Assembly: GCA_020831765.1 (NCBI GenBank)
Contig: JAFIFY010000011.1
Coordinates: 1 to 47,793, forward strand
From: Phycisphaeraceae bacterium
GTDB taxonomy: Bacteria > Planctomycetota > Phycisphaerae > Phycisphaerales > Phycisphaeraceae
Direction: 5' to 3'
Length of the DNA stretch: 47,793 nt
Shown here: piece after piece, positions 11,850-44,517 of the stretch
Numbering within the stretch: position 1 is the stretch's first letter
Layout: the number at the start of each line of letters is the position of its first letter
Notes under the pieces: generated by a model
What the model was told of the DNA's origin: nothing
What the model saw: only the letters and a program-made list of their open reading frames with translations
Databases searched by the model: none
Program-made: the position numbers and the translations under genes

Positions 11850-11850
11850 A

Positions 11851-12444
11851 TCAGTCGGCCCCCATCATGCGTCGCCGTCGATCGGCATCCAGCAGCACCG
11901 CCAGCGTCTTGGCATCAACAATCCGTCGTTGATCAATCATCCGCATCACCTCGGCAAAGGGCAGCGGATGCACCGTGATCCGCTCGGTCGCTTCGAGTCT
12001 CTGGCCCTCGTGCTCCAGATCATAAGCCGCAAAGCAGTGCAGCAGTTCGGTGCAGAAACCCGGGGCACTGTAAATGGACATGATCGACTCAATCCGCCCC
12101 GCCCGATAGCCGGTTTCCTCAAGAAGCTCCCGGGCCGCGCAACCTTCGGGCGTTTCCGGCGCGGGCTCCAGCGTCCCGGCGGGAAGCTCCCATAACGGCT
12201 GATCGATGGCAAACCGGTGGTTGCGAATCAGGACCACCGTCCGATCATCCAGCCATGGCAGAATCACCACCGCCCCCGGATGCACGACCACCTCCCGCTG
12301 CCGGTACCCGCCGTCCCGCCGCTCGACTCGTCCCCGCACAACGCGAAATTTCTCCCCTTCGACCACACTGGGCAGCCCCCGCCACCGGGCATTGGGGTCG
12401 AGATGCGCTGCCGAATCTGTCTGAGGCGGGCCATCGGTCATCAT
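11851..12444 (-). CDS. NUDIX hydrolase, ADP-ribose pyrophosphatase-like
   Basis: NUDIX enzymes hydrolyse nucleoside diphosphates linked to another group. The arrangement WELPAGTLEP upstream of the box is typical of ADP-ribose/sugar-nucleotide pyrophosphatases. The box reads GTLEPAPETPEGCAARELL followed by EETGY; the RE...EE metal-binding glutamates are intact, but there are six rather than five residues between the first Gly and Glu. The ATG at 12444 (197 aa) is preferred because GGGGAGAA lies 6 bases upstream. A GTG at 12495 would add 17 residues and has no clear site. The 3' end supplies the G-rich region just before the rhomboid start, and the two genes form a tight pair. No membrane segments or signal peptide are seen. 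Confidence 0.9.
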   Translation of the reverse strand: MMTDGPPQTDSAAHLDPNARWRGLPSVVEGEKFRVVRGRVERRDGGYRQREVVVHPGAVVILPWLDDRTVVLIRNHRFAIDQPLWELPAGTLEPAPETPEGCAARELLEETGYRAGRIESIMSIYSAPGFCTELLHCFAAYDLEHEGQRLEATERITVHPLPFAEVMRMIDQRRIVDAKTLAVLLDADRRRRMMGAD

Positions 12445-12714
12445 CGCCCATTCTCCCCGATTCGCCACCACCTCGCACGGGGCATGATCGCCCACGTCGG
12501 CCGGACTTGCCCCGGCGGGGCACGTTGCTCAGAAGGTGCCACAAATGCCGGGCCGACGGCCGCGCTCGGGCACGTCGCATTCCCTGCCACCGGACAGCAT
12601 CCTGCATCACCAGGATTGCACGGACGATGATCGCTCCGTACGGTGGTGGACCTTGTGGCCATCCCCGCATATGAAAACGCCGATTCCTGAACCAGCATCA
12701 AGCAAGGCGCGAAC

Positions 12715-13752: not shown

Positions 13753-14057
13753 CGATACGATGCTTGCGACCGCCGGTATAGCCCACGGGTGTTGCCGGGA
13801 CCGTTTGGTCGTTGGCATCGGATTCTTCCGTGATTAAGCCGGCAGGCACCTTTGTTCTTCCACATTGTCGCGCGGCCATGTTTCTGCCCCCTGAACAGAA
13901 GCTTCATGGGTTCCCGGATTTCTGGCTGTGACCAACCCGGCAATAATGTCGGCCTGTCGCCCGTCTTGACAGAGTTGAACTCGTCGCCGACGCCGGTATT
14001 ACCGCGGCGATCGAGGCTCAGTGCCCGCCATACTCGTCGAAATAGGAAGCCTGGACC
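13753..14057. other. Intergenic region before the heparinase-like gene
   Basis: No gene or terminator is convincing in these 305 bases. The only feature I can support is the promoter-like pair listed separately at 13975-14002. Confidence 0.5.
13975..14002 (+). promoter_or_regulatory. Candidate promoter of the heparinase-like gene
   Basis: TTGAAC (13975-13980) and TATTAC (13997-14002) are separated by 16 bases, 55 bases upstream of the start codon at 14058. An overlapping TTGACA at 13967-13972 has no -10 at proper spacing. Confidence 0.4.
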
Positions 14058-17015: not shown

Positions 17016-17212
17016 TCGGGCAATCCCAGACAATGGCGTGCCCCGTGATCACGACACCGACGGGTCTAACGGTGCAGATGCACAGGCGATCGAGCCAGTC
17101 TCTTGGGGCCTTGGCACCGCGCTCCACCAATACCCCGCGCCCGTTCAGACCGGGGAAGATCGCATCAATTCTGGCCGAACACCCAACCCACGTGTGCGGG
17201 CTTCCGACCTCT

Positions 17213-18400
17213 TCACACCTCGGCGGCCTCGGTCGCGGCCTGGCGTTGGGCCTTGCGCCAGACGGCCGGGGTCTGGCCGTGGTGCCGGTTGAAAACGCGG
17301 CTCAGGTGATTGACATCGCGAAAGCCCGATGAGGTGGCGACCTGCGACAGAGGAAGCTCGCTTGAGGCCAGCAGTCGGCTGGCGTGTTCGACGCGGAGTC
17401 GGTGAAGCTCCTGCAGAGGGGTCCTGCCCAGCGCGGCAAAGCAACGCCGCTCGAGGTCACGGCGGGAGATGGGCACGGCCTTGATGACATCGGCCACGCG
17501 AATGCCATCCCGCGCATGCTGACGCATGTAGCGAAGCGCTTCATTGAGCGGAGCATCGGACACGGCGACCGCATCGGTCGAGCCGCGACTGACGATGCCG
17601 GATGGGGGAATCTTGATCCGTCTCTCGGTCAGATTCTCGCCATTGAACATGCGATCCAGCCAGGATGCGGCTTCACGTCCGATGCGTTCACACGGCCATT
17701 CGACGCTCGAAAGCGCCGGGCGGCACATCAGGCACATCCGCTCATAGTTGTCCATGCCGATAATGGCGATCTGCTCGGGCACGGCGATATCCATCTCGCG
17801 GCAGAGTTCGGCCAGGTGGCGCCCGCGCCGATCATGCACGCAGGCGATCCCCACCGGTTTGGGCAGGTCGTGCAACCATTCGGACAGCAACCGCCGAAGC
17901 CGAACCTCATCGCGAAGCTTGTCGGGCGACAGCTTGAGGTCACCGGGAAACGAACGGAATTCCGCGCCGCGGCTCACGGCGGCGTTCCGGCATCCTCTTT
18001 CCCTCAGCATGCTGTACCGATGGCCCAGCGAACTGCCATAGAACGCCAGCGTTTCATAGCTGCGGGCGAGGAAGAACTCGGCGGCCATCTTACCGGCCGC
18101 CTCATCGTCCGGGCCGACCGTTGGAACATCCAGATTGCCGATGACCCGGGCCAGATTCACCACCGGCAGGTGCCGAGCCTTGAGTTTGTCGGCCAGCTCA
18201 TCGTTGGTGATGTGGGCGATCACCCCGTCAAGCTCCGCTGAGTCCAGCGCCGATACCCCTTCGGCCTCGTTGAGCAGATACGGAAAAGTCCAGTCCGTCT
18301 GGTCCTGGGCGTAGGCGAGAATGCCTCGCAGGACTCCTGAGTCATAACCACTGTCACTCAAACCAAATAGCGCGACCTTGCGCATCGATGCCTTTGCCAT
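17213..18400 (-). CDS. XylR-family transcriptional regulator (LacI-like sensor plus AraC HTH)
   Basis: Residues about 5-270 form a periplasmic-binding-protein-like sensor of the LacI/GalR type, with typical phrases LDGVIAHITNDELA, PTVGPDDEAAGKMAAEFFLA and IAIIGMDNYERMC. Residues about 285-390 are an AraC-type DNA-binding domain with two helix-turn-helix units: VADVIKAVPISRRDLERRCF, then PLSQVATSSGFRDVNHLSRV, closing with HGQTPAVWRK. This architecture matches the xylose-responsive XylR group, whose members bind a sugar and switch sugar-utilisation genes. The ligand is unknown here. Two starts are possible, 18400 (GAGG 5 bases upstream) and 18385 (AAAGG 5 bases upstream). Its position beside the heparinase-like gene suggests control of carbohydrate enzymes, and a dyad at 18434-18455 may be its own operator. 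Confidence 0.92.
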   Translation of the reverse strand: MAKASMRKVALFGLSDSGYDSGVLRGILAYAQDQTDWTFPYLLNEAEGVSALDSAELDGVIAHITNDELADKLKARHLPVVNLARVIGNLDVPTVGPDDEAAGKMAAEFFLARSYETLAFYGSSLGHRYSMLRERGCRNAAVSRGAEFRSFPGDLKLSPDKLRDEVRLRRLLSEWLHDLPKPVGIACVHDRRGRHLAELCREMDIAVPEQIAIIGMDNYERMCLMCRPALSSVEWPCERIGREAASWLDRMFNGENLTERRIKIPPSGIVSRGSTDAVAVSDAPLNEALRYMRQHARDGIRVADVIKAVPISRRDLERRCFAALGRTPLQELHRLRVEHASRLLASSELPLSQVATSSGFRDVNHLSRVFNRHHGQTPAVWRKAQRQAATEAAEV

Positions 18401-18433
18401 CGCGGCCTCGAAGAAAATCAGGAGAAAAAAGAG

Positions 18434-18455
18434 ACAAAATCGGGCGACTTTGTCC
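18434..18455. promoter_or_regulatory. Candidate operator for the XylR-type regulator
   Basis: GACAAA (18434-18439) and its reverse complement TTTGTC (18450-18455) are separated by 10 bases, a dyad 34 bases upstream of the regulator's start. Its placement fits autoregulation. Assignment is by position and symmetry only. Confidence 0.4.
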
Positions 18456-18673
18456 CGGCCCAGGGATCGATGCCGATCACCGACCGGACACCAACAGCCT
18501 TCGCTGGGCCGTGTCCATAAAGCTGAACGGTCAAGTGAACAGATTTATGCCGCAAAATCACAGGCACAGACGAATAACCCGACCGAAAGGTCGAGGCGAG
18601 CATCGAGGTGTCCAGGCAGCACCCGGCGAACCGGAAATCCGAGCATCGAACCCGGGGGCGACCCGAAGCGGCC

Positions 18674-19831
18674 CTATTCGGCGTCCTCAGAAAAGATTTC
18701 CGCCCAGGCGGTGAGTTGCTCTTCCCGCCGCGCGTGATCGATGCCGAAGCGGTCGTCGATCGATCGAACGTAACCCCAGTCCTCGCGGTAGTCGATCGCC
18801 CGGAATTGCTTGAACCCGCCCCAGGTTTCGAACTGGTCAACGAGGGCATCGTCCCACGCGTAGGTCGCAAAAGCCTCACGAATCTTCCCCGCCAGATCGG
18901 GCTCGAGGTTGTGGACCCATCCGATCGCCGGGCCGGGGAACCGCGGCGAGCGATCAATAACCCGCAGTTTCCCCTGGCGATAGGCTTCGCTTTTTTCCAG
19001 CACATCGTCGGCGACCGCCGCGACCGTGTACTGTCCGTCGGCCACCCCGGCAATGGATGCGGTATGGCTGTAAGAGAGGACCGGCATGACATCCGGCGGA
19101 TTGAACTTGTTCAGATCGAAACCGTGATCCCGCAGGTGCAGCAGAGGCGCGGTGTAACCGGAATTGGACCCCGGCCGAGTGAGCGTGAATTGCTGCCCCT
19201 TGATGTCCTGAATCGAACGAATCCGACTTTCCTTGCGGACAATGATGGCCATCCGATGTCCGAACTCCCCGTTCTCATCAGCAACCGTGAACGCGGGAAT
19301 GAACCCCAGCCGATTGACCGCGAACGGCACGCTGCCGGTATTCAGGCCGGCGATGTGCAGCTTGCCGTGCTTGATGTCCAGTTCCTGGGCATTCCGATCA
19401 GTGTAAAGCCGGTACTCGACCTCCCGGCCCGTGGTCTTCCTGATCTGGGCCATCAGGCCGCCGAACGCCTCACGCCATGCTTCAGCCCGCGCCAATCGCT
19501 CCTGCTCGCTGAGTCTGGGATCCTCTTCAGGAATGTAGGCGAACGTCAGGACCGGCGGATTGATCCATTGTTCCGCCTGCTCGGGTGCATCCGCCAGCAG
19601 ATTGCCTGAGCGGTCGGCAAAACGCGGAGCAAGACGGTTCGCAACCGGCGGACGAATGCCCAGCGTTCGTTCCATGCGGTCTCCACCCGCGATCGATTCA
19701 GGCAGTACCCTGGACAGCAGCCCGGGCGCGAACATGAGGATCAATCCTCCCACCACGATGACGGGAAGGATCACACCCAGGACCCGGAGGATCGAGAACT
19801 TGACCGGTTTCTTCTGATTCGGTGTTGACAT
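18674..19831 (-). CDS. PhnD-like phosphate/phosphonate-type substrate-binding protein, membrane-anchored
   Basis: The ATG at 19831 is chosen because AGGAG is 5 bases upstream; upstream in-frame codons lack a site. The 385-aa protein starts with a short cytosolic stretch and a single membrane helix (residues about 15-36), which probably anchors it in the inner membrane. It then has the two-lobed type II binding fold of the PhnD/phosphite family: LTFAYIPEED, the linker ELDIKHGKLHIAGLNTGSVP, IRSIQDIKGQQFTLTRPGSN with SGYTAPLLHLRDHG, and GVADGQYTVAAVADDVLEK. Family members bind phosphonate, phosphite or phosphate for an ABC importer. No phnC/phnE permease or ATPase gene is next to it, so it may instead be a sensor or serve a distant transporter. 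Ligand unknown. Confidence 0.85.
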   Translation of the reverse strand: MSTPNQKKPVKFSILRVLGVILPVIVVGGLILMFAPGLLSRVLPESIAGGDRMERTLGIRPPVANRLAPRFADRSGNLLADAPEQAEQWINPPVLTFAYIPEEDPRLSEQERLARAEAWREAFGGLMAQIRKTTGREVEYRLYTDRNAQELDIKHGKLHIAGLNTGSVPFAVNRLGFIPAFTVADENGEFGHRMAIIVRKESRIRSIQDIKGQQFTLTRPGSNSGYTAPLLHLRDHGFDLNKFNPPDVMPVLSYSHTASIAGVADGQYTVAAVADDVLEKSEAYRQGKLRVIDRSPRFPGPAIGWVHNLEPDLAGKIREAFATYAWDDALVDQFETWGGFKQFRAIDYREDWGYVRSIDDRFGIDHARREEQLTAWAEIFSEDAE

Positions 19832-21432
<1,601 letters not shown>

Positions 21433-23909: not shown

Positions 23910-26900
23910 ATGGTTCCGAAATACCCGATCAACGCCGCCCCGCACCCTTCACCCTTGCCGTCCCCGCCGGAGGGCTCCGGCATCCCATCGCCCGTCGGCT
24001 TCTGCCGCGCTGCGGTCAGGCCGTATGCCGAGTTGGGCATCATCAGCAATTTCTCTTTTCTCACCGGTGCCAGCCACCCCCATGAACTGGTCGAGCAGGC
24101 CGCGAATCTGGGTCTGGAGGCGATCGGGCTGGCCGACATCAACACACTGGCCGGGATTGTCCGCGGGCATGTCGCGGCGAAGGAGGCCGGCTTTCCCCTC
24201 CGGGTGGGCAGCCGCCTGCGCATCGATCTGACGCCGCCCGGAGACGATCAGCGCCGCCGACATGCCCGAAGCAGCCGGACCGCCCCACCGACCGTTTCCG
24301 CGGCCGCCGAGGACCTGACCCGGCTTTCCGATCCCGCCGCCGGGTTCAATGCGCCATGGGTCGGCACAACGCCCGGCCGTCGGCCCAGCGGCATCACGGA
24401 CCAGCCCGCCGATCCCGCCCATGTGCTGGAACTTCTGGTCTATCCGACTTCGATCGAGGGATACACGCGTCTATCCCGGTTGCTCACACTGGGCCGACGC
24501 AACGCACCCAAGGGGTTCTGCGAGCTGCGCCTGGTTCATCTTCTGGCCACCGATGCGCGGGACTGGCAGGTGGTGATTCTTCCGCCGCGCAAGAACTGGG
24601 GCCAATCCTGGATCGCCGCGGTGCGAAGCATGCAGGACACCTGGCCACAGGCCCGGGCGGTCACGCAACTGGGCTTGATCGGATCCGAACACAACGGTGC
24701 CCGCCCCACCGGCGGGGACTCGAACCTTTCGCTGGCCGTGTGCGCAGCGCTCGATGGCCGCGATCAAGAGCATCTGGCCCGTGTATTGGCCCTTGGACGC
24801 GATCTTGGCATCCCCCTGCTGGCCATCCAGGATGTTCAGTACCATCATCCTTCACGTCGGGCGCTGCATGATGTGCTCTGCTGCATCCGCCATAACCGCA
24901 CCCTTGATGAAGCGGGCCGGCGACTTTCCCCCCACGGCAACCATCATCTTCAGAGTCCGGCCCGGATCGCATCGCTTTTCGGCTTCATGCCCCGGGCCAT
25001 CGACCGCTCGATCGACATCGCCCGGAAAACCGCCGGCTTCAACCTGGACCAGCTCCGCTACGAATATCCCGAGGAAACCTGCCCCGACGGCAGCACGCCG
25101 ATCGCGCATCTGGCCGAGCTGACCCGTCAAGGCGCGCGGGAGCGATATCCCCGAGGTGTGCCCGAGCGCATCACGCGGCAGATCGACCATGAGATGAAGC
25201 TGATCGATGCGCTCGACTATGCCCCCTATTTCCTGACGGTTTACGACATCGTGCGTTTTGCCCGCGGCCGGGGCATTCTCTGTCAGGGGCGTGGCGCGGC
25301 GGCCAACTCGGCCGTCTGCTTCTGCCTGGGCATCACCAGCGTCGATCCGGACCGGATCAACCTGCTGTTCGAACGCTTCATCAGCCAGGAGCGCAACGAG
25401 CCGCCGGATATCGATGTGGATTTCGAGCATGAACGCCGCGAGGAGGTGATCCAGTACATCTATCGCCGCTTCGGCCGCCATCGCTCGGCATTGACGGCCG
25501 TGGTCACCCGCTTCCGAACCCGCAGCGCCATTCGCCAGGTCGGCAAGGCGATGGGCCTGAACCTGGACCTGGTCGATCGCATGGCCCGGAACATCGGTCA
25601 TCACGATCTGGATCAGGACATCGAAACCCGATTGCGGGAAACGGGCGTCGATCCCCGGTCGGGGCTTGTTCGGCTGATGCTCGAGCATGTACGGCGGATT
25701 CACGATTTTCCACGCCATCTTTCGCAGCATGTCGGCGGCTTTGTCATCACCCGGCGACCGTTGTGCGACCTGGTCCCGATCCAGAACGCCACCATGGCCG
25801 ATCGAACGGTCATCGAATGGGACAAGGATGATGTGGATGCGATGGGCATGCTCAAGATCGATGTGCTGGCCCTGGGCATGCTCAGTTGTGTACGAAAGAG
25901 CCTGGACATGATCACTCAACTGGAAGCGCCCCGGCCGGCGCTGGACCTGGCGGGCATTCCCGCCGAAGACCCGACGGTCTATGACATGATCTGCCGCGCC
26001 GATACGGTCGGTGTATTCCAGATCGAATCACGGGCCCAGATGTCGATGCTGCCTCGTCTCAAGCCCCGGAACTTCTATGACCTGGTCATCGAGGTGGCGA
26101 TTGTGCGCCCGGGGCCGATACACGGCAGGATGGTGCATCCTTACCTTCGGCGACGGCGCGGCGAGGAGCCGGTGACCTATCCGGATGAACGTGTGCGGGA
26201 AGTGCTGGGCCGGACGCTCGGGGTGCCGCTGTTTCAGGAGCAGGTGATGACGCTGGCCGTGGCCGCGGCGGGGTTCACACCGGGCGAAGCCGACAACCTT
26301 CGCCGCGCCATCGCGGCATGGAAAGGCAAGGGTAAGGTGATTCTGCGATTCGGTCAGCGCATCATCGAAGGCATGGTCGCGCGGGGCTATGACCAACCCT
26401 ACGCCCAGCGGGTGTTCGAGCAGATCAAGGGGTTTGGTGAATACGGCTTTCCCGAATCCCACGCCGCCAGCTTCGCCCTGATCGTTTATGCCTCGGCATG
26501 GATCAAGTGCCACTATCCGGCCGTGTTCGCCGCATCACTGATCAACAGCCAGCCGATGGGCTTTTATGCCCCGGCCCAGATCATCGCCGATGCGCAACGC
26601 CACGGCGTTGAGGTTCGCCCTGTCGATCTCAACTTCAGCCGTTGGGACTGCACCCTGGAGCCGATCGACCCGGCCGACCGCCCGGATCGCCTCGCGCAGC
26701 CGCCCAGACGCACGGCCATGCGTCTGGGCTTCCGGCTGGTGCGCGGCCTGAGCCTTGATCAGGCCATGCGCCTCGATCATCCCGAACAGGGAAGCTGGAA
26801 GACGCTGGAACAGGTCCGCCGCGCAACGGGCCTGGGAACCGGGGCACTGCGCAACCTGGCCCGGGCCGATGCCATGCAATCGCTCGGGCTCAACCGGCAG

Positions 26901-34031: not shown

Positions 34032-36647
34032 ATGCAGACCTTTGTGCACACCTCGGGGCCGGCGGTCGTGCCCGTCCTGGTCAATACGCTTCCGATCATC
34101 CTGGCCATCATCTCGGGCGTTCTGGTGGCCATCGGCACCACCATGCTTTCGCTGCTCAAGCCCCGCGTGATGGCTCAGGTCGCGGTGGCGCTCTGGCGGC
34201 TTAAGCTGCCCGTTCTGGTGACGGTGGCGATCGTGTGGGGTGGGATGGAGGCATGGAAGCATGTCTCGGCCGCGCCCACCGGCGAGGTGACCGCGGCCGA
34301 AACGGAAGCCGGCGACTGGCCGATCTTCCGCCGGGATGAATCGCGGCGAGGCTGGGTGGGTGATGGGCCCGGGCCCAATGCCGGAGGCGTCAACTGGGCG
34401 TTTCGTCGCGACATTCACTCCTTCTTCTCATCGCCGACGGTGGTGGGCAATCGGGTCTATATCGTTTCGGCGCGGATGGGGGCGTTCAATCGAATCGGCC
34501 GCGTGTTCTGTTTCGATGCCGACACCGGAGGCCTGGTCTGGGAAGGCGGACCGCGCGACATGCGCCCGACCTTCTCATCACCGGTCGTCTACGGCAATCG
34601 GCTGGTCATCGGCGAAGGCCTGCATGACACCAAGGATGCGCGGATCATCGTCATCAGTCTTGATGAGGAGAACCTCGGCGAGGTCATCTGGACGTATGCC
34701 ACCCAAAGCCACGTCGAGTGCACGCCCGTGGTGGTGGATGGGCGAATTTACGTCAGCGCCGGGGATGATGGCATCTACTGCTTCGAACTGGAACCCGATG
34801 AGGAGGGCAACCCGCGCAAGGTCTGGCACCTCCCGGGCGAGGACTATGTCGATGCCGAGACATCGCTGATCGTGCATGAAGGCATCGTCTACGCCGGGCT
34901 GGGTTACGGCGGCGATGCAATGTGCATCATCGATGCCCAAACCGGCACCGAACTGAAACGAATCAAGACCCCGTACCCGGTGTTCGGTCCTCCGGCGGTG
35001 TTCGGCGACCAGGTGATCTTCGGCATGGGCAACGGGGACTATGTATTCACCGCCCAGGAAAAGGGATTGCCGCCGGGCGGCGCGGTCTGGAGCATTGATT
35101 CATCAACCCACGAGGTGCTCTGGAAATTCCCCCTGCCCGAAACCGTGCTCGGGTCCGTGGCGGTCACCGAAGACCGCATCTTCATCGCCTGCACGGATGG
35201 GGTGCTCTATGTGCTGGATCATCGCGGCCGGCGCGTGGGGTCATGGAATTCCCATGGCAAAATGGCCGCCTCACCGGCGGTCTGCTCGGAACGGGTCTAC
35301 GTGTTCACCACCAGCGGCATGGTCTATGGCCTTAACAAGCGGACGCTGGAGCTGGAGTGGCAGATCGCCGCCAGTTCGGGCGATCTGTGCATCAGCTCAC
35401 CAGCCGTCGCGCGCGGGCGCCTGTTCGTGGGTACGCACCTTGATGGCATGCTCAGTCTCGGCAGGGTCGAGGTGACCACGCCCATGCCGTTGTGGCCCGG
35501 GAGCCAGGGCGGCATGGCCACCGGGGGCAATCCGTCCGATGGCCCGCTGCCGGCACTGGGCGCTTATCACTGGTCGTTCCCGCCGGATCAGATGGGTGGT
35601 GATGAGCGGGTCACCGTCAGCGGAGCGGTCGCGGCGATGGAAGACCGCCTGCTGGTTCCGATCAAGACCGGCAATCTGGCCGGACTGGTGCGAATCGGCC
35701 ATGGCGGTGGCGGCAGCGCGGCTGAGCCGGACTGGACATGGCCGCGTGAAGAGGGCGTCCATCGAACGCCCGCCATCGCCGGGGACCGGGTCTTTGTCGC
35801 CACCGGCGCTGCCGGCGACGAAGCACGCATTCTCGCGGCATTGGACTGGACCGACGGGCGGACGCTCTGGAACCATTACATCCGCATGAGCGCTTCGGGC
35901 ATGGTCCATGCCACCACCGAACATCTGTACGCGACAACCGGCGGAAACGAACTGAGCTGTTTCGACCATGATGGCGCTCTGGTCTGGCAGGCCAATGTCG
36001 GCAACATCGTCTGGGAGCCGGTCTTTCGCGATCAGATGATGGTCGTGGCCGATGTGGAGCGCAACGCCCTGGTCGCACTGGACCGGAGCACAGGGGCCAG
36101 GCTCTGGAAGCGGGAGATCGAACAGCCGATGCGCGGCCCACCGGTGTTTCTGGGAAGTGTCCATTCTCCGGTGTTGTATCTGCCCACGGCCGGTGGCCTT
36201 GAAGCACGATCGCCCGTGGATGGCCGACTTGACCCGGGCATGCCCCCATCGCCCGCCGGCGCCTCGACCACGCCGGTGCTCTGGCAGGGCCAGATGGTCT
36301 ATGTTGATGACATGGGACGGCTCCTGCTTCGTGATGTGGAAACCGGCCGAATCACCGCATGGACCGCCGGTGCCCTTCCCGGCGTCGCGCCGATGCCGGC
36401 ACGGGACCGTATCCTCTTCGCTTCGGCCGACGGGCTGATGAGCTGGGAGCCATCGCCACGGGAACATCCAGAGACGGAGTTGGATGAGCACGGCCTTCCA
36501 CGGACCGGAGCGGATGATCCGCAACCCGAGGAGTGGGTGGACACATCGTGGCTTGGGCGCTTCACCGCCCCGATGGTTTGGAGCGAGGGGCGCATTTACG
36601 TCGGCATGGCCGGTTGGGGCCTGACGCGACTCGGAGCCAGTGAATGA
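34032..36647 (+). CDS. Membrane-anchored PQQ-type beta-propeller protein
   Basis: The protein (871 aa) starts at ATG 34032, chosen because GGAG lies 6 bases before it. An ATG 12 bases upstream is too close to that site. Two membrane helices (residues about 13-42 and 58-76) precede an extracytoplasmic region with at least ten PQQ-like repeats, e.g. CFDADTGGLVWEG, WSIDSSTHEVLWKFPLP, YGLNKRTLELEWQIAA and VALDRSTGARLWKREIE. That number suggests one large or two propellers. Such repeats usually act in protein-protein contacts rather than binding PQQ cofactor, and no dehydrogenase signature is visible. It begins a set of four genes joined by overlaps; its stop overlaps the next start by 4 bases (ATGA). 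The role is unknown; the operon suggests envelope-linked function. Confidence 0.85.
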   Translation: MQTFVHTSGPAVVPVLVNTLPIILAIISGVLVAIGTTMLSLLKPRVMAQVAVALWRLKLPVLVTVAIVWGGMEAWKHVSAAPTGEVTAAETEAGDWPIFRRDESRRGWVGDGPGPNAGGVNWAFRRDIHSFFSSPTVVGNRVYIVSARMGAFNRIGRVFCFDADTGGLVWEGGPRDMRPTFSSPVVYGNRLVIGEGLHDTKDARIIVISLDEENLGEVIWTYATQSHVECTPVVVDGRIYVSAGDDGIYCFELEPDEEGNPRKVWHLPGEDYVDAETSLIVHEGIVYAGLGYGGDAMCIIDAQTGTELKRIKTPYPVFGPPAVFGDQVIFGMGNGDYVFTAQEKGLPPGGAVWSIDSSTHEVLWKFPLPETVLGSVAVTEDRIFIACTDGVLYVLDHRGRRVGSWNSHGKMAASPAVCSERVYVFTTSGMVYGLNKRTLELEWQIAASSGDLCISSPAVARGRLFVGTHLDGMLSLGRVEVTTPMPLWPGSQGGMATGGNPSDGPLPALGAYHWSFPPDQMGGDERVTVSGAVAAMEDRLLVPIKTGNLAGLVRIGHGGGGSAAEPDWTWPREEGVHRTPAIAGDRVFVATGAAGDEARILAALDWTDGRTLWNHYIRMSASGMVHATTEHLYATTGGNELSCFDHDGALVWQANVGNIVWEPVFRDQMMVVADVERNALVALDRSTGARLWKREIEQPMRGPPVFLGSVHSPVLYLPTAGGLEARSPVDGRLDPGMPPSPAGASTTPVLWQGQMVYVDDMGRLLLRDVETGRITAWTAGALPGVAPMPARDRILFASADGLMSWEPSPREHPETELDEHGLPRTGADDPQPEEWVDTSWLGRFTAPMVWSEGRIYVGMAGWGLTRLGASE

Positions 36648-39421
36648 TCAGCGAATCGGCCCAGTGGGCACATCCATTCGATCAGCCATTGGATGAGGGC
36701 ATCGATGCCGCCGCGCTTCTGGGCGGCAAAGGGTCGAGCCTTCAGGCCATGAGCATGGCCGGTCTGCCCGTGCCGCCGGGCTTCACCATCACGACCGACT
36801 GCTGCGCCCGGTTCTTCGAGCTTGAGGGCCGCTGGCCGGATGGACTGCAAGAGCAGGTCAGGCAACAGGTGTCGGACCTCGAGCGGAAGACCGGGCGGCA
36901 ATTCGGCCGGGGAACGAATCCGCTGCTGCTCTCGGTGCGTTCCGGCGCCGCGGCTTCGATGCCCGGCATGATGGACACCCTGCTCAACTGCGGGATTCAT
37001 CGCGGCCTGGCCGCGCCACCCCCGGAAGGCGTGGGCGATGGCCCGGCGGTCTGGACTCTGCTTCGGCAGTTCATCCTTTCCTATGGCAAAGTCGTCCATG
37101 GGCTCGATGAGGCGTCGCTCTTTCAAAAAGCCGGCATGGAACCCGATGCGGACGCATCCGGCCGGAGCATCGATCGTCTGCACGAGGCCTTCCAATCGCT
37201 CACCGGCGAGCGGTTTCCGGATGATCCCTGGCTTGCGCTGCGCGGCTGTATCGACGCGGTCTTTCGATCGTGGAACAACCCGCGGGCCCGGGCCTATCGA
37301 AAACGGCACGGCATCACCCAGCTCACCGGCACGGCGGTCAATGTCCAGGCGATGTTTCCCTCGCGGGTCTCGGGCATCGTCTTTACCGTCGATCCGAACT
37401 TTCAGCATCCCGAGCAGATGATCATCGAGGCATCGTACGGCCTGGGCGAAGCCGTCGTGTCCGGCGAGGTCACGCCCGATCGCTTCATCGTCCATCGCGA
37501 CGAGCTTGCCATCATCCGGCGATTCGCCGGACAGAAGACCACGACGATATCGGCCCTCGGCGAACCGATCACGGTCGATCCGGATCGGCTGTGCCTTGAT
37601 GATGAACAGGTGATCGAACTGGCCCGGCTTGCCCTGGAAGTGGAACGGCATTTCGGCTATCCGGTGGATATGGAGTGGGGCCTGGCCGACGGCGTATTCA
37701 GCCTGCTTCAGAGTCGGCGGATTCGAGGCATGGAAGTCGCCCGCATGGTCGAGCCTGCCCGCCGCGCCGAAATCCAGCGGCTTGGCGAGATGTGCAACGG
37801 GCAGCGGCGCGTCTGGGTGGCGCACAATCTCGGGGAGACGCTCCGGCTGCCGACCATGCTCAGTTGGGACATCGTTCAGCGGTTCATGCGCGGGTCCGGC
37901 GGATTCGGACGGATGTACCGCATGCTGGGATACCGGCCCTCGCAACGGGTGATGGAGGAAGGCTTCCTCGAGATGATCACCGGGCGCATCTACACCGATC
38001 CCGAACGGCAGGCGGAGTTGTTCTGGGATGGGATGCCGCTGAGCTACGACCCGCGGGAACTGATCAACGATCCATCCCGCATCGGCAACATGCCCGATCG
38101 TTTCGATGGCAACAAGGCCGATATTCACTTTCTCAAGCGTCTGCCCGGCAATCTCATGGGCATGCGGCGGGTATCGCGTGAGATTCGCCGCCTTCGGCCC
38201 GAGGCTGACAAGCGATTCAACGCGTCCATCGTGCCCGGTTTTCTGGACATGGTCACCAAGAAACGGCGGCAGAATCTCGATGCCCTCGATGCCGGGGCGT
38301 TGCTCAAGGAGTTGAATGTTCGGGTTCGCCTGGTGCTGACCGACTTCGGGGGCGAATCGCTGTTGCCCGGCTTCCTCGGTGGCTTGGCGTACGACCGGCT
38401 GACCGGCAGGCTGACGCAGTTTTTCGGCCAGGAAGAGGCGGCCAGGAAGCTTGCCGCGCTGACGCGGGCGCTGGATGGCGATACGACATTCGAACAGGAT
38501 GCCCTGCTTTATGAGGTCGCCCATGGCCGCGCATCGCTGGATGTTTTCCTTGAGAAGTTCGGACATCGCGCGATCGGCGAGATGGAGCTTTCAGTGCCCC
38601 GCTGGCACCAGGACTCTGAACCCCTGCAACCCATGATCCAGCGGCTGACCTCATCCAGCGCCACACCACCCAGGGAACAGCACCAACGGATGCGAAAGCT
38701 TCGTGAGGAAGCGCAGGAGCGCCTGCCGCTTGATCTGGCCGAGGCCGGTGCTTCGACCTTCGAACACGAAGTCATGGCCGACCTTCGCGATGTCCAACGC
38801 CTGCTGCCCTTCCGTGAATCGGGCAAGCACTACCTGATGATGGGTTACAGCCTGATCCGCGATGCGATCGTGGCCCTGGGCCGACGATTGGAACTGGGCG
38901 ATGATATCTTCCACCTCACCTTGGCGGAGCTTGAGACCGCCGTGTCGGACGCATCAGCGGTGGCCGAGCGGATCCAGGAGCGGAAAATTCTGCGCCAGGC
39001 GTATGCCCGGCTGGATCCGCCGATCGTCATCGACAGCGCTGAACTGGAGAATCTTGGACTGGCCGGAGCGGTGGAGGATGCCGACTCGCTGGACGGCCAT
39101 CCGATCGCTGCGGGTGTGGCCAGTGGACCGGCGAGAATCGTCATGAGCCCGGACCAGGCCGGTGATCTGGGCGAGGGCTATATCCTGGTCTGCCCGTCAA
39201 CTGATCCGGGCTGGACACCGCTTTTCATCGGCGCCCGGGGCCTGATCGTGGAACGGGGCGGGGTGCTCTCGCACGGCGCGATCGTGGCAAGGGATTTTGG
39301 CATTCCCGCCGTCGCCTGTCCCAGGGCGACACAATGGCTCAAGGATGGTGACATGGTTCGGATTGATGGTCAGCACGGCCGGGTGGTGCGGCTTGCCGCC
39401 GAGGGGGTGAGCCGTGGTTGA
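36644..39421 (+). CDS. PPDK/PEP-synthase-like phosphotransferase lacking the PEP/pyruvate barrel
   Basis: The 925-aa protein has an N-terminal ATP-grasp domain of the pyruvate-phosphate-dikinase type: GGKGSSLQAMSMAGLPVPPG (27-46), LLLSVRSGAAASMPGMMD (about 94-111, with Arg99), and VSGIVFTVDPNFQHPEQ. The C-terminus is the swivelling phosphohistidine domain with the catalytic His877 in VERGGVLSHGAIVARDFGIP. Normal PPDK and PEP synthase continue with a roughly 350-residue TIM barrel for PEP/pyruvate, and this protein ends right after the His domain. Between the two lies a mostly helical region (about 370-790) that I do not recognise. The order ATP domain, middle domain, His domain matches rifampin phosphotransferases. 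The acceptor molecule is unknown. The start ATG overlaps the preceding stop by 4 bases and its end overlaps the next start by 8. Confidence 0.88.
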   Translation: MISESAQWAHPFDQPLDEGIDAAALLGGKGSSLQAMSMAGLPVPPGFTITTDCCARFFELEGRWPDGLQEQVRQQVSDLERKTGRQFGRGTNPLLLSVRSGAAASMPGMMDTLLNCGIHRGLAAPPPEGVGDGPAVWTLLRQFILSYGKVVHGLDEASLFQKAGMEPDADASGRSIDRLHEAFQSLTGERFPDDPWLALRGCIDAVFRSWNNPRARAYRKRHGITQLTGTAVNVQAMFPSRVSGIVFTVDPNFQHPEQMIIEASYGLGEAVVSGEVTPDRFIVHRDELAIIRRFAGQKTTTISALGEPITVDPDRLCLDDEQVIELARLALEVERHFGYPVDMEWGLADGVFSLLQSRRIRGMEVARMVEPARRAEIQRLGEMCNGQRRVWVAHNLGETLRLPTMLSWDIVQRFMRGSGGFGRMYRMLGYRPSQRVMEEGFLEMITGRIYTDPERQAELFWDGMPLSYDPRELINDPSRIGNMPDRFDGNKADIHFLKRLPGNLMGMRRVSREIRRLRPEADKRFNASIVPGFLDMVTKKRRQNLDALDAGALLKELNVRVRLVLTDFGGESLLPGFLGGLAYDRLTGRLTQFFGQEEAARKLAALTRALDGDTTFEQDALLYEVAHGRASLDVFLEKFGHRAIGEMELSVPRWHQDSEPLQPMIQRLTSSSATPPREQHQRMRKLREEAQERLPLDLAEAGASTFEHEVMADLRDVQRLLPFRESGKHYLMMGYSLIRDAIVALGRRLELGDDIFHLTLAELETAVSDASAVAERIQERKILRQAYARLDPPIVIDSAELENLGLAGAVEDADSLDGHPIAAGVASGPARIVMSPDQAGDLGEGYILVCPSTDPGWTPLFIGARGLIVERGGVLSHGAIVARDFGIPAVACPRATQWLKDGDMVRIDGQHGRVVRLAAEGVSRG

Positions 39422-40316
39422 TGCGATCAACGATGCTTTTCTTGCCGTTGGGGATTTTCTGCTGGGCTGGGTGCTGGCGCTGCCCTCGGATGTCGCCTTG
39501 ATCGTCCTGTCCATCGGATCGGCGGGCATACTCTGGGCTTTGCAGATGGCGATGCGCGATCGTGACCGCGCGGCCCGCATCGAGTCCGACCGATTGATGC
39601 TCAAGCGCCACAAGGCCCAGGCCAAGGCCAGTGGTGACCGTGATACCCTCCGTCGCATCAAGCGTACCCATGCCCAGGTCTCCCTCCGCGCCGCGGCCAT
39701 GGACATCAAGCCCCTGCTCGTCGCGCTGCTACCGCTGATTGTGATCGCCAACTGGGCTTACTTCCGCATGGAGTTCCATCCGCCCCAGGAAGGTGAGCCC
39801 GTGCGGGTGGTTCTGAGCATGTCGCCCACCGTCGCCGGTGAACTGGTGCATCTGGTGCCCACCGAAGAATTGGCCCTGGCGCTGGACGATGCTCATTCGG
39901 AAACCTGGGCGCGACGACTGGAGCTGGTCGAGGCTGATGATGCCCCTCGAAGCGAGGCGAGTTGGACCGTCACCGCCACCGCATCGGACGATCCGCACGA
40001 ACTGCTGATCCGCCATCGCAACAACAATTTCCATCATGCGATGTGGGTCGGCGGCCGCCGCTACGGTCTGCCGCTGATCGAGCATGAGACGCCCCCGGAG
40101 ACGGCCACCAGGCTCGAAATGCGGGAGGTGAGGTTCCTGGGTGTGGTGCCGGGCATCCCCGCCCTGGCTTTTCCGGCGTGGCTGACCGCCTATGTGGTCA
40201 TCATCGTGCCCGTCATCCTGCTGATGCGATATTTCAGCCGCGCCAAGCCCACTTTCGTCCCCCGGCCCATCGCCGACGAGGCCGCGCAACAGCATGCCGA
40301 GAGCAGGCCATCATGA
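39414..40316 (+). CDS. EMC3/TMCO1 (DUF106)-like integral membrane protein, Oxa1 superfamily candidate
   Basis: The 300-aa protein begins with GTG 39414, supported by a GAGGGGGTG run 5 bases upstream. Membrane helices lie at about 25-47, 99-117 and 254-275. Between the first two is a positively charged helical segment (RDRDRAARIESDRLMLKR, then DTLRRIKRTHAQ), followed by MDIKPLLVALLPLIVIANWAYF. This pattern of helix, basic cytosolic coiled region, KP and second helix, with a final WLTAYVVIIVPVILLMRYF helix, is that of the DUF106/EMC3 branch of the YidC/Oxa1/EMC3 insertase superfamily. It differs in a roughly 130-residue beta-rich insert between helices 2 and 3, where family members have a short loop. 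I judge the family by pattern, not by search. It overlaps both neighbours. Confidence 0.6.
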   Translation: MVDAINDAFLAVGDFLLGWVLALPSDVALIVLSIGSAGILWALQMAMRDRDRAARIESDRLMLKRHKAQAKASGDRDTLRRIKRTHAQVSLRAAAMDIKPLLVALLPLIVIANWAYFRMEFHPPQEGEPVRVVLSMSPTVAGELVHLVPTEELALALDDAHSETWARRLELVEADDAPRSEASWTVTATASDDPHELLIRHRNNNFHHAMWVGGRRYGLPLIEHETPPETATRLEMREVRFLGVVPGIPALAFPAWLTAYVVIIVPVILLMRYFSRAKPTFVPRPIADEAAQQHAESRPS

Positions 40317-41308
40317 TCGATCAGGTCATCGATGCCCTCTCGCCCCGCCTGGTCGAACGAGCCTGGCTCATCAGCGACCTGCAGCAGACCCTGCCGGATT
40401 GGGCCGAACGCAATCTCCGCATCGCCGTGGAAGATGCGCTTGGCCTGAAGCTGGACTTCAACCAGGTCTGGTACCTGGGCGATGGGACCGAAGGCGCTGA
40501 TGCGGCGCGTCTGGATCAGATGGTGCGGATGCAGATCGGAATGCTCGCCCGCCTCGATGCCCCGATCCGCTACATCATGGGAAATCACGATTTCGATCCC
40601 TTACGCAAATGGATGCGCAGTCGGTCGTCCGACGCCGATGCGCCGGATTTCCCGGTCGCGGGGCCGCTGTATGAGGCCGCTGGATCTTCGCCCGGGTGGA
40701 TTTCAACGGCATCGACCCGGGACTTCTACTTCCTCGATCGCTTCGGCGGTTATACGGTGCTGTTCCTGACCGATCATTGCGCCGCCGATGGTTCGTGGTA
40801 CACCAGCCATGATCGGGTACACGGCGATCCCGAATCCTACCCGCACCCGCCGGCGGCCTATCGCCGGCTGGCCGATGAGCTGGCGGCCTTGAACCGGCCG
40901 ATCGTCAGTGCCGGCCACTATCCATTCCCCGGCGGCAACCGCGCCAACCCCGGCGGCCTGCTGACACGACTGTTGCCGCTTTGCCCCGGCCACGTGGCGC
41001 ATTTTTACGGCCACAGCCATATCGGCGACCTGGCCTACGGCAAAGACGATGCCTATCGAAAAATCTGCTCCGTTTCCGGCCACCGGGTGCCGCAGATCAA
41101 TGTCTCCTCGCTTGACACGATTCGGGGCGATGAAGTGCGATCGGTGGTTCTCGATGTCTACGAGGACGACACGCTGGGGCTGTATTTTCGCCATCACGGC
41201 CGCGGCGAATGGGCCGAGGCACTGTTGCTCAATCCCAAGCCCAGCCGTGAGATGGGGGTGACACGGCTTGAATCCTGGCCGCCGCCCTGGGCAACCGAGG
41301 AGTCATGA
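40313..41308 (+). CDS. Calcineurin-like metallophosphoesterase
   Basis: The 331-aa protein starts at ATG 40313, inside an ATGA overlap with the preceding stop. The five blocks of the metallophosphoesterase fold are visible: LISDLQQ (Asp22), YLGDGTEG (GD at 56-57), IMGNHDFD (GNHD at 90-93), SAGHYPF (GH at 201-202) and YGHSHIGDL (GHSH at 233-236). The first block is D-x-Q rather than the usual D-x-H, so one metal ligand appears replaced by Gln. Catalysis on phosphomono- or diesters is inferred; no substrate is indicated. No signal peptide, so it acts in the cytoplasm. Being the last of four overlapping genes, it may process a nucleotide or phosphorylated product linked to the phosphotransferase in the same operon. 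Confidence 0.85.
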   Translation: MIDQVIDALSPRLVERAWLISDLQQTLPDWAERNLRIAVEDALGLKLDFNQVWYLGDGTEGADAARLDQMVRMQIGMLARLDAPIRYIMGNHDFDPLRKWMRSRSSDADAPDFPVAGPLYEAAGSSPGWISTASTRDFYFLDRFGGYTVLFLTDHCAADGSWYTSHDRVHGDPESYPHPPAAYRRLADELAALNRPIVSAGHYPFPGGNRANPGGLLTRLLPLCPGHVAHFYGHSHIGDLAYGKDDAYRKICSVSGHRVPQINVSSLDTIRGDEVRSVVLDVYEDDTLGLYFRHHGRGEWAEALLLNPKPSREMGVTRLESWPPPWATEES

Positions 41309-41492: not shown

Positions 41493-42752
41493 ATGCCTTA
41501 TGCCCGGAACGGGTTCCTTTTCCTGCTCATCGCCACACTGACCGGTTGCGCTTCGCCCAGAACCGAACCGGTCATGACCAGCGTCGGGGCGCCCTCGGCA
41601 TCAACCGCCAGTGCATCTTCGCGCGAACGCCCGACTGCGCACTTCGGCATGGATCGAACGATCCTGGAAAACAGCGAGTTGCGGGCGCTCAACCACCAGA
41701 TGCTCTGGATCGGCCGGGTTCCGCTGCTCCAGGGCGGCCAGTTGGCCCATGTCAAGGTGCTCGGCGATCTGGTCGTCTCGGTCGATCCCCACCGCCGCGT
41801 GGTCAGCGCCAACAGCCTTCGCGACGGCTCGCTTCGCTGGCAGACGAGAATCGGCACCCCCGGACAGGCGCTTTACGAACCGATCCGGGAAACGATCCGC
41901 TATCGAGTGCGCGAGGTGACCGAGGATCAGCAGAACGAAGTGACGCGAGATATCTCCGAATCGCTGGTCTTCGTGAATAGCGAGACGCAGCTTTTCGCGC
42001 TGGATGCCGACACCGGGCGCGTGGCCCGCATCGATGAGCTGCCCCATCGCGTGCTGCATGGTCCGACCCATGCCGGTAATCGCGCCATATTCGGCAGTAT
42101 GACCGGCATGGTCTTCGCCCACGATCTCATAACCGGGGCCACGCTTTGGCGCATCGCGCTTCGGGAGCAACTGCGGACGCCGCCGGCCCCGATCTACTTC
42201 GCCGGTGACGCCGGCGCGGTCTACGTCGTCGATATGTCCGGACAATACAAGCTGCTGCGCGTGGGCGATCCGCCGCGCGGCGATAGCCGCATTCTCTGGG
42301 AAGGTCGCTTCTTCGGCCCGGTCACCACTGGCGTGTTCGAGTTCGATGACAAGCTGATCGTGGCCAGCCATGACACCAAGCTTTACGCGCTGAATCGAGC
42401 CCTGGGCGAAGAGGCGTGGGCGGTCAACACCGGACGGAGGCTGGTCGAGGATCCGGTCCGCGTCGGGGATACCATCTATCTGCCCATCGGAGCCGATCAG
42501 TGGTGGGTTCTGGATGGCGAGGACGGACGCGTACTCTGGCGGGGCATGCTCGCCGGGCCCCCGGTGGGAACTTTCGAGGGATTTCTGGTTCTCAAACGCG
42601 ATGGCTTCCTCTCGCTCCATGACATCAATACCGGACGCTACGTCGAGGATTTTCCGATCCGCGATGTCAACAAGTTCATTCGCCTGGATGATGACCGCGT
42701 CCTGGTGGCTTCACCCGAGGGACGGTTGATCCTCATTCGCTCAACCCGATGA
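41493..42752 (+). CDS. PQQ-type beta-propeller lipoprotein, BamB-like
   Basis: The ATG at 41493 has GGAG 8 bases upstream. The 419-aa protein begins with a lipoprotein signal ending LTGC, so Cys19 would be lipidated. Ala at position 2 of the mature protein would send it to the outer membrane in bacteria that use the Asp rule. The rest is a propeller with repeats such as SANSLRDGSLRWQTRIG, FALDADTGRVARID, HDLITGATLWRI, YALNRALGEEAWAVNTG and WVLDGEDGRVLWRGML. Length and lipid anchor resemble BamB, the scaffold of the outer-membrane barrel assembly machine, although BamB function is not shown. A second propeller protein heads the operon just upstream. Its own promoter (41434-41462) separates it from that operon, but it may act with it. 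Confidence 0.8.
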   Translation: MPYARNGFLFLLIATLTGCASPRTEPVMTSVGAPSASTASASSRERPTAHFGMDRTILENSELRALNHQMLWIGRVPLLQGGQLAHVKVLGDLVVSVDPHRRVVSANSLRDGSLRWQTRIGTPGQALYEPIRETIRYRVREVTEDQQNEVTRDISESLVFVNSETQLFALDADTGRVARIDELPHRVLHGPTHAGNRAIFGSMTGMVFAHDLITGATLWRIALREQLRTPPAPIYFAGDAGAVYVVDMSGQYKLLRVGDPPRGDSRILWEGRFFGPVTTGVFEFDDKLIVASHDTKLYALNRALGEEAWAVNTGRRLVEDPVRVGDTIYLPIGADQWWVLDGEDGRVLWRGMLAGPPVGTFEGFLVLKRDGFLSLHDINTGRYVEDFPIRDVNKFIRLDDDRVLVASPEGRLILIRSTR

Positions 42753-42912
42753 TGTGCCGGTGAACCGACCGAACATCGCCGCCGACGCTGGATGCTGAAC
42801 CCCATCGGCCCGATCGGCGCACGCCGCGATCCTTGCCCACCCCGGCGGCTTGTGGTTCCAATCGTTTCCCGGACCCCACCGACACTCCGTCCAGACCTCG
42901 AAAGTTCCCCCC

Positions 42913-44517
42913 ATGACCGATGTCATTCCCATCCGACGCGCTTTGCTTTCGGTCAGCGACAAGACCGACCTGATCGAATTCGCCCGTAAACTCGCCGGAT
43001 TCGGCATCCAGTTGATTTCGACCGGCGGGACGGCCCGCGCCCTTCAGGATGCCGGGCTGAAGGTCACCGCCATCGAGGAGGTCACCGGGTTCCCCGAGAT
43101 CATGGACGGGCGGGTCAAGACCCTCCACCCCAAGGTGCATGGCGGCCTGCTGGCCCGTCGCGATCAGCCCGAGCATGTCCAGGCCATGAAGGACCATGAC
43201 ATCGAGCGGTTGGTCCTGGTCTGCGTTATCGTTTATGGGTTGGAGTAGACCATCGCCCGCGAGGGCGTGACCGAAGCCGAGGCCATTGAACAGATCGACA
43301 TCGGCGGGCCGAGTATGGTGCGAAGCGCCGCCAAGAACATGAACGCCGTGGCGGTCATCACATCGCCGGATCAGTACGACCGCGTCGGCGTGGAGCTCGA
43401 TCAGCACCGCGGAGGCACATCCCTCTCGCTGCGTCGCTGGCTGGCGGCGGCGGCTTTCGCCCGCACCGCCGCCTATGACTCGGCCATCGCCGCGTGGATG
43501 TTCGCCCGCAACAGCGGCTCCAGCGCGCCCGACGACCAGCAATTGCTCCCCGCCAGCCTTGTCCTCCGCTATCAGAAACTCTCCGACCTCCGTTACGGCG
43601 AGAACCCCCACCAGCCCGGCGCGGCGTATCTCGACCCGACCGTCACCGAACTTTCCATCCTTCAGGCGCACCAACTCCACGGCAAGGAGCTTTCCTTCTG
43701 CAATCTCTACGATGCCGACGGCGCCCTGGAATTGATCAAGGAATTCGACCCCGACGAGCAGGCCGCCGCCGCGATCATCAAGCACGCCAATCCCTGCGGG
43801 CTTTCCGTGGCCGATTCGCTGGCCACGGCGTTCACCCGGGCCTACGAGGGCGATCCCCTGGCGGCCTACGGCGGCATCGTCTGCCTGAACCGGCCGATCG
43901 ACGCCGCCACCGCCGAAGAAATCACCGCCATCAAGAGCTTCTTCGATGTGATCCTGGCCCCCGGCTTCTCGGCCGATGCCCTGGAACTGCTCAAGAACCG
44001 CTGGAAGAACACGCGCCTGCTCCGCCTGCCCGCTTCGCCCACGCGCGGCCGTCGCACCGAGGCACGCGATCTGAAGTTCATCCGCGGCGGCCTGCTCATC
44101 CACCAACGCGACCAGGCCGCCATGCGCGCCGCCCAGTGGACCCACGCCGCCGGGCCCGAACCCGACGCCCAGACCCTGGCCGATCTGCAACTGGCCATGA
44201 TCGCCGCCAAGCATCTCAAGAGCAACGCCGTCAGCATGGTCCGTGCCGGGATGCTCGTTGGCGCGGGCGCAGGCCAGATGGATCGCGTGGCCAGTTGTCG
44301 CATCGCCACACAGAAGGCCGGCGAGCGCGCAACCGGGGCGGTGGCGGGCTCAGACGCCTTCTTCCCGTTCAGTGATGGGCCCCAACTGTTGATCGAAGCC
44401 GGCGTCCGGGCCATCGCCCACCCCGGCGGCTCCATCCGGGATCAGGAGACCCAACAGCTATGCCAGGAGCGCAACGTCACGCTCCTGACCACCGGAACCC
44501 GGCATTTCCGCCACTGA
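42913..44517 (+). pseudogene. purH: purH (AICAR transformylase/IMP cyclohydrolase) interrupted by an in-frame TAG
   Basis: PurH performs the last two steps of IMP synthesis: formyl transfer to AICAR, then cyclisation. Read through, the frame is 534 codons, normal for PurH. The N-terminal part has [20 protein letters not shown] and [15 protein letters not shown]; after the stop come IDIGGPSMVRSAAKN and the transformylase motif IIKHANPCG. Codon 112 (43246-43248) is TAG. Around it, residues 100-111 read [12 protein letters not shown] where PurH normally has IDLVVVNLYPFE, so six residues and the stop differ from the family within 13 codons, with no frameshift. This looks like local sequence corruption or a cluster of mutations rather than normal decay. 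If real, the gene would give a 111-residue fragment and possibly a re-initiated C-terminal part from GTG 43267. No ribosome site is clear at the ATG. Confidence 0.85.

Follow-up and report, generated by a model that had tools for sequence, protein, structure and literature searches.

This study examined four overlapping genes, g1 to g4, in a planctomycete genome (Phycisphaeraceae bacterium, GCA_020831765.1, contig JAFIFY010000011.1); the window is the whole stretch of DNA analyzed, 47,793 nucleotides in length. A reading made from the letters alone, the sequence-only reading, had described the four genes as a candidate envelope-linked phosphotransfer unit comprising a propeller, a phosphotransferase, a membrane protein, and a metallophosphoesterase. 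The open reading frame (ORF) coordinates confirmed that all four are co-directional on the + strand at 34032-41308 and overlap by exactly 4, 8, and 4 bases. Comparison across the phylum revealed that the conserved core consists of three genes, g1-g2-g3, whose order is kept in distant planctomycete relatives, and this supports an envelope-linked phosphotransfer unit that is conserved and apparently undescribed. The features of the locus were as follows.

g1, 34032-36647, + strand (ATG at 34020 as an alternative start): an N-terminal two-helix membrane hairpin (VVPVLV...LP...SLLKPR) followed by a PQQ/BamB-like beta-propeller, presumably extracytoplasmic.
g2, 36644-39421, + strand: a predicted cytosolic phosphotransferase of the rifampin-phosphotransferase fold, with an ATP-grasp domain, a central acceptor domain, and a C-terminal phosphohistidine domain carrying His877; no pyruvate barrel.
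g3, 39414-40316, + strand, GTG start: a TMCO1/EMC3-like membrane protein with transmembrane helix (TM) 1 at residues 25-47, a coiled coil at 50-98, TM2 at 99-119, a beta domain at 130-235, and TM3 at 255-276 (helix ends from the model, sidedness presumed).
g4, 40313-41308, + strand: a calcineurin-like metallophosphoesterase, an exchangeable accessory.
g5, about 41493-42752, + strand, 3' of g4: a PQQ/BamB-like propeller lipoprotein with the lipobox LTGC.

The distribution of the unit is patchy. Full-length g2 paired with g3 was found in 3 of 61 genomes sampled from the window's family and order, that of the window included, and the unit is therefore not essential. At the threshold used for the class- and phylum-wide searches (E<=1e-150), g2 was present at 26 places in 25 of 298 genomes and at 31 places in 29 of 392 genomes, respectively. 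Low-scoring g2 matches, which occurred in 59 of the 61 relatives and were excluded from the counts by this threshold, look like pyruvate phosphate dikinase (PPDK) and other paralogues, judging by the extent of the matches. A scan for a single g3 peptide pattern in one genome per species across 84,980 species yielded 15 loci, which is not an exhaustive set; six were already in hand. These loci were labeled Phycisphaerae, Schlesneria, and other Planctomycetota, with one metagenome-assembled genome each from Verrucomicrobia and Lentisphaeria (labels unverified).

Unfused loci were termed type I, and 40 distinct ones were collected (the window, L038, L039, L103-L113, L141-L149, L164, and L171-L186). 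The genes g1, g2, and g3 were all present in order in 31 of the 40, contig ends hiding part of six loci (L107, L164, L180, L181, L183, and L186), and g2 was immediately preceded by a g1-matching propeller in 35 of the 36 loci with that side visible. In the searches led by g2, g3 was the neighbor of g2 in 28 of the 30 unfused loci that could be read (12/12 unfused places in the class, G001 and G033 of a neighboring genus, and 14/16 readable loci in the phylum). The phylum loci represent 18 of the 30 non-window places, fetched with flanks, two of whose contigs end too soon; the remaining 12, long proteins among them, were left out of the flank reading. Loci L141-L149 were found through g3, hold it by construction, and stand outside the 28/30 count, except L146 (= G557), which was also led by g2. 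The 8-base overlap of g2 and g3 was seen again in L135-L138, and 4-base overlaps of g1 and g2 are common. Because the g1-g2-g3 order recurs across the phylum and the 8-base overlap recurs, the arrangement is beyond chance. The four-gene unit of the sequence-only reading thus holds for its first three members, and the metallophosphoesterase proved exchangeable.

The strongest available sign of a joint complex is the fusion of g2 and g3. Among the 26 places of g2 in the class, 14 (type II) encode long proteins with a g3-like C-terminal region. The shortest, truncated where its contig stops, has 1,016 residues and the longest 1,335, the complete ones having about 1,210-1,335. After the phosphohistidine domain, this region comprises a TM helix, a coiled coil, a second TM helix, an outer domain, and a third TM helix, ending mostly in LRIA or LRVA, and it is homologous to the profile of the separate g3 (hhalign E 5e-14, 98.2% probability). 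A short propeller lay upstream in all 10 type II loci where that side was visible, 11 of the 14 having been fetched with flanks, and an FG-GAP-type protein occurred in 7 of these 11. Because both proteins occur as one polypeptide, g2 and g3 very probably act as one complex.

To characterize g2, we compared its sequence and an AlphaFold model with known families. The Pfam scan detected PPDK_N (1.1e-61) and the mobile PEP-utilizers domain (3.7e-21), and the C-terminal phosphoenolpyruvate (PEP)/pyruvate barrel was absent. The model (predicted local distance difference test score, pLDDT, 88.2; predicted template modeling score, pTM, 0.81) matched rifampin phosphotransferase (RPH) with a Z score of 39.0 over 719 residues at a root-mean-square deviation (rmsd) of 10.8, a high whole-chain value that is expected if domains differ in placement; Foldseek gave E 1.8e-34. 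In sequence, the N-terminal part is nearest to PPDK and the C-terminal part is RPH-like. The description of g2 as PPDK-like without a barrel was accordingly right about the missing barrel and the N-terminal part; the fold is that of RPH and not merely that of a barrel-less pyruvate enzyme. RPH is reported to yield phospho-rifampin, AMP, and inorganic phosphate, the phosphohistidine being positioned by Arg666 and Glu667 (PMC4844700), and R724 and E725 of g2 align with this pair.

The catalytic residues were counted in a non-redundant set of 55 g2 proteins, made up of 40 from type I loci, the 14 fused ones, and the long protein of L169. His877 was present in 52, Arg724 and Glu725 in 53 each, Glu344 and Gln356 in all 55, Arg358 in 54, Arg99 in 50, and Lys29 in 51; almost every gap falls at a contig end, and His877 was missing from L059, where the domain is absent, and from L181 and L186 at contig ends. 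Because the fold and both catalytic centers are conserved, all copies of g2 except that of L059/L108 are predicted to phosphorylate a hydroxyl acceptor that is not pyruvate. The degenerate unit at L059/L108 has a short propeller, substituted catalytic residues in g2, and an intact-looking g3. Scores against named families were low for g2: 271.6 bits against the rifamycin family NF041857 (cut-off 999), and 221 of 843 and 197 of 740 bits for the pyruvate-enzyme equivalogs TIGR01828 and TIGR01418. We rejected a pyruvate enzyme as the identity of g2 on the missing barrel, the low equivalog scores, and the RPH fold match along the chain.

The membrane protein g3 had been called EMC3-like. The window protein itself had no meaningful Pfam match and no match to PF01956 (EMC3_TMCO1) at E<=1, and its genome likewise had no PF01956 match; the relatives and the structure model upheld the description at superfamily distance only. 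Ten of 13 aligned type I g3 proteins matched PF01956 at E<=1 (best 3.2e-7), and three of 10 scanned sequences (nine g3 and one fused end) exceeded its 27.1-bit cut-off, namely those of L104, L106, and L141. When 294 planctomycete genomes were searched blindly with PF01956, nine matched, and seven of the nine matches lay beside g2, including all three over the cut-off. The AlphaFold (AF2) model of g3, built from 16 sequences (pLDDT 85.4, pTM 0.69), matched TMCO1 of a human ribosome-translocon structure over 137 of 174 residues (Z 10.0, rmsd 3.8), the next row having Z 6.5. This fold match counts because it stands apart from the next row and agrees with the sequence evidence. Foldseek with the same model returned no match at E<=0.001, and the weak matches were chiefly Ig-like and to the beta domain.

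The best sequence match of the g3 profile in the PDB was the archaeal protein MJ0480 with alignments A3 (E 2.2e-4) and A5 (E 3.5e-5). With alignment A8, three TniQ sequences (E 0.002-0.003, mostly in the outer-domain region) stood above MJ0480 (0.015), and the kinship of g3 therefore rests on the Pfam matches, the fold, and the profile comparisons together. The beta domain between TM2 and TM3, of about 105 residues, had weak Ig-like and complement-type matches with Z about 6. From sequence and model, g3 appears to be a bacterial protein distantly related to the TMCO1/EMC3/Oxa1 superfamily and carrying an extra beta domain on the extracytoplasmic side. In a paper on how SecY and YidC originated, TMCO1, EMC3, and GET1 are listed as eukaryotic endoplasmic reticulum paralogues that stand beside prokaryotic YidC, archaeal MJ0480 included (PMC8675477), and a study comparing 460 homologues regards DUF106 as a family of archaea (PMC8887752). 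The window organism also has a canonical YidC, and g3 is therefore an extra.

The view of g1 as a membrane-anchored PQQ propeller was borne out by a PQQ_2 match (2.6e-44) and by the hydropathy scan, which placed one hydrophobic helix at residues 16-34 and another at 50-68. An EMC1-like propeller was rejected; by profile, g1 resembles BamB and further propellers of the PQQ type, its 55 PDB matches at E 1e-3 include no EMC1 chain, and the score against Beta-prop_EMC1_N was 20.4 bits (cut-off 34). Neither g1 (127.3 bits) nor g5 (66.3 bits) reached the 285.2-bit cut-off of the BamB model TIGR03300. Because further PQQ propellers also score against the g1 profile (one in L142 reaches 152 bits), the low-scoring matches of L108, L111, L175, and the type II loci may be propellers of another kind. 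FG-GAP proteins beside the unit (L039, L104, L105, L112, L141, L149, L172, L173, L176, and L178) share an N-terminal motif, approximately INPxFTPxxL, near or after the signal peptide, which suggests a dedicated partner domain. A second module of a ~1,330-residue TPR protein, an FG-GAP protein, and a ~480-residue PQQ propeller was observed beside type I and type II loci (L142 at 11687-18946, L143, L114 at 13173-19999, and L115, with L132 partly visible); Pfam was run on L142 and on the first two proteins of L114.

We further investigated the phosphoesterases near the unit. The g4 protein matched Metallophos (8.6e-6, 26.7 bits against a cut-off of 21.5), and the hydropathy scan found no hydrophobic helix in it. 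Its homologue lies 3' of g3 in L146 (41% identity over 149 residues) and L176, and a conserved four-gene unit including the metallophosphoesterase was rejected, as the homologue occurs in only three loci (the window, L146, and L176). Other enzymes occupy similar places: a PHP-domain phosphoesterase comes next after g3 in L145, L149, and L109, its likely start in L149 overlapping the g3 stop; the run of genes in L103 includes a PHP gene upstream; in L182, g2 is immediately followed by another kind of metallophosphoesterase; and three purple-acid-phosphatase-like genes are found on the opposite strand in L112. At least 7 of the 40 type I loci have a phosphoesterase of one family or another directly downstream, a lower bound from seed searches and reading with Pfam on chosen genes. 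The background was about 0.45% of genes (159 PHP and Metallophos matches in nine genomes, assuming 1,100 bases per gene), which gives a binomial probability of 6e-10 if the loci are independent; two pairs are related, and with four gains only the value is 3e-5. It is fair to assume at least four separate gains. That phosphoesterases of different kinds recur beside the unit supports a product that is both phosphorylated and hydrolyzed.

Proteins resembling g3 (profile match E 9e-25) also occur in a third context without g2. In all 12 loci examined (L040, L041, and L120-L129), two genes of the type I phosphodiesterase/alkaline phosphatase (AP) superfamily, an ORF of 62-85 residues, and a g3-like gene stand in this order; some fifty further genomes with g3-like matches lie outside this count. 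Only 2 of 20 AP-linked g3-like proteins matched PF01956. The g3-like bacterial branch thus accompanies phosphate-ester enzymes even without the dikinase. In L040 and L041, the first AP-superfamily protein has an AYIGPGAG-like motif before a TM helix, and the short ORF of L040 gave a weak ribbon-helix-helix match below the cut-off.

In the window, the unit is preceded by a transketolase gene on the opposite strand, and the GC content of the g1-g4 region is 64% against 63% for the window. Promoter and terminator scans of the locus were at chance level. The propeller lipoprotein g5, which the sequence-only reading had placed under its own promoter, is real; its promoter is one of 2 consensus matches in a region where chance alone would give 2.0. 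What we take to be a purH-like gene at 42850-44517 appears split into two ORFs (42850-43248 and 43267-44517) by a real lesion or a sequencing error. Elsewhere in the window, a PHP-domain match of 33.2 bits was observed at 24045-24413 inside a 1,211-codon open frame.

We propose that g1, g2, and g3 form a complex in the membrane that, on the cytosolic side, transfers phosphate to a hydroxyl of a substrate bound to the membrane or linked to a lipid, a phosphatase being an optional addition, and we give this proposal about an even chance of being correct. It joins the computed gene order, fusion, folds, conserved catalytic centers, and recurring phosphoesterases to complex formation in the window organism, g2 activity, topology, and substrate features that we infer. 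The three proteins would constitute one inner-membrane complex, in which cytosolic g2 would charge His877 with the beta-phosphate of ATP and set free AMP and inorganic phosphate. A swiveling domain of g2 would then carry the phosphate to the central acceptor pocket, where Arg724 and Glu725 would position its transfer to the hydroxyl. The TMCO1-like three-helix protein g3 would keep g2 at the membrane and present or admit the acceptor, which most likely is bound to the membrane or linked to a lipid. The outer beta domain of g3 and the g1 propeller, often together with an FG-GAP protein, would cover the extracytoplasmic face, where the beta domain and the propeller would bind either a partner or the substrate. 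Where a phosphoesterase is present, whether a metallophosphoesterase or a PHP enzyme, it would remove the phosphate or recycle the product. A lipid or lipid-linked acceptor is plausible because protein insertases related to g3 are reported to scramble lipids (PMC10491306); the role in membrane-protein or lipid handling suggested by the sequence-only reading is likewise an inference. A more specific version, in which a bacterial TMCO1/EMC3-type protein has become the membrane half of an ATP-driven phosphorylation machine and the histidine-relay dikinase, a fusion partner in many species, acts on a lipid, polyprenol, or lipid-linked glycan, is a tentative possibility to which we lend less credence than to the general proposal. 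In this version the dikinase would act within or next to the groove of the three helices, and the machine would also comprise outer propellers and a phosphoesterase to match.

Several observations weigh against the proposed complex. No phosphoesterase was seen directly downstream in 33 of the 40 type I loci, in some owing to contig ends, and the AP-linked set without g2 implies that g3-type proteins do not always serve a dikinase. The Z score of 10.0 to TMCO1 is below ~13, a range that helical proteins can reach through a common arrangement. Conserved charges in the g3 helices are few, and none is mid-helix (A3/A8); Arg44, near the end of TM1 that adjoins the coiled coil, is present in most relatives, and the window g3 has Gln there. 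Excerpts on YidC describe a conserved positive residue central in its membrane groove (PMC8920935), and g3 has no conserved charged mid-helix column in the same alignments, the groove position being mapped inexactly. The g2 protein of L059/L108 has lost the phosphohistidine domain, R724, E725, R99, and R358, and g3 is kept; the unit therefore cannot work as proposed in that genome. Furthermore, L182 and L184 are readable and have g2 without a detectable g3, L110 lacks g1, and most close relatives lack the unit.

Other explanations share part of this evidence. That g2 phosphorylates a soluble substrate, for example in the inactivation of a small molecule in the manner of RPH, with g3 as a mere anchor and the propeller sensing the molecule, would agree with the fold and both catalytic centers, which are those of RPH, and with an N-terminal part closest to PPDK, itself a soluble-substrate enzyme. 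We consider it unlikely; g3 is more than an anchor, as its conserved coiled coil, three helices, and outer domain are kept even when fused, and no drug or transporter genes recur in the neighborhoods listed, on part of which the family libraries were run. An EMC- or TMCO1-like membrane-protein insertase or chaperone, regulated by the phosphotransferase and phosphatase or having its clients modified by them, appears rather improbable: the homology and fold of g3 and the EMC1-like arrangement of a propeller subunit speak for it, whereas the organism has its canonical YidC, g1 matches BamB/PQQ propellers with EMC1_N below the cut-off, and g3 has no conserved mid-helix charge.

Phosphorylation of a glycan or lipid-linked glycan would provide a role in envelope or polysaccharide handling, FG-GAP proteins and propellers binding the substrate and GH123-type glycoside hydrolases cutting it. 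The unit would then be a distant functional analogue of glucan water dikinase, and GH123-like and FG-GAP proteins do recur beside g1-g2-g3. Neither kind, however, is found in the ORFs around the window locus, and glycoside hydrolase and propeller genes could just be frequent throughout planctomycetes. We hold this explanation to be rather improbable. The names of the best NCBIfam models (phosphoenolpyruvate synthase and pyruvate phosphate dikinase) and the PPDK-like N-terminal part could suggest that g2 serves central metabolism as a pyruvate dikinase or PEP synthase and that its neighborhood is incidental. Such an assignment is hardly credible given the missing PEP/pyruvate barrel, scores far below the equivalog cut-offs, the conserved neighborhood, the fusions, and another protein of the genome (C45, 892 residues) that resembles the PPDK-like N-terminal part.

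No established pathway was found for g1-g4, in agreement with the sequence-only reading, and we know of no system that joins the parts of g1-g2-g3. Because no known system does so, the system is counted as new, though each part belongs to or lies near a known superfamily. Among the titles and beginnings of abstracts listed for open papers, with most subscription papers outside, none dealt with the gene set, with a planctomycete EMC3/TMCO1-type protein, or with a dikinase linked to such a protein. Planctomycetes are described in excerpts as a phylum with unusual membranes (PMC8567305). A TMCO1-like bacterial branch tied to a phosphotransferase would show that the fold has been recruited for chemistry, besides insertion and lipid scrambling, and the unit would offer a test case for the capacity of the three-helix groove. 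Genes whose closest family models bear the name PEP synthase would moreover gain an activity that can be tested, and the natural fusion proteins make the g2-g3 complex directly testable. Should the tentative version with a lipid, polyprenol, or lipid-linked glycan hold, it would mean a new activity for both the Oxa1 and the dikinase superfamilies.

Among known systems, RPH (PDB 5HV1-5HV3 and 5FBS) shares with g2 the fold, the domain order, the C-terminal histidine carrier, the R666/E667 pair, and the absence of a pyruvate barrel; in contrast to RPH, g2 has a PPDK-like N-terminal part, scores far below the family cut-off, and is linked or fused to a TMCO1-like membrane protein. The HpeHI two-component kinase and the PigC/RedH ligases belong to the same ATP-grasp and phosphohistidine superfamily and use non-pyruvate acceptors, and the excerpted text on them mentions no membrane partner, unlike the case of g2 (PMC12167813). 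BamB and other PQQ propellers have the propeller repeats of g1 and g5, whereas g1 carries an N-terminal TM hairpin anchor and scores below the BamB cut-offs. TMCO1, EMC3, and MJ0480 have the order TM1, coiled coil, TM2, TM3 and the fold in common with g3; g3 differs from them in its beta domain, its bacterial origin, and its link to a phosphotransferase.

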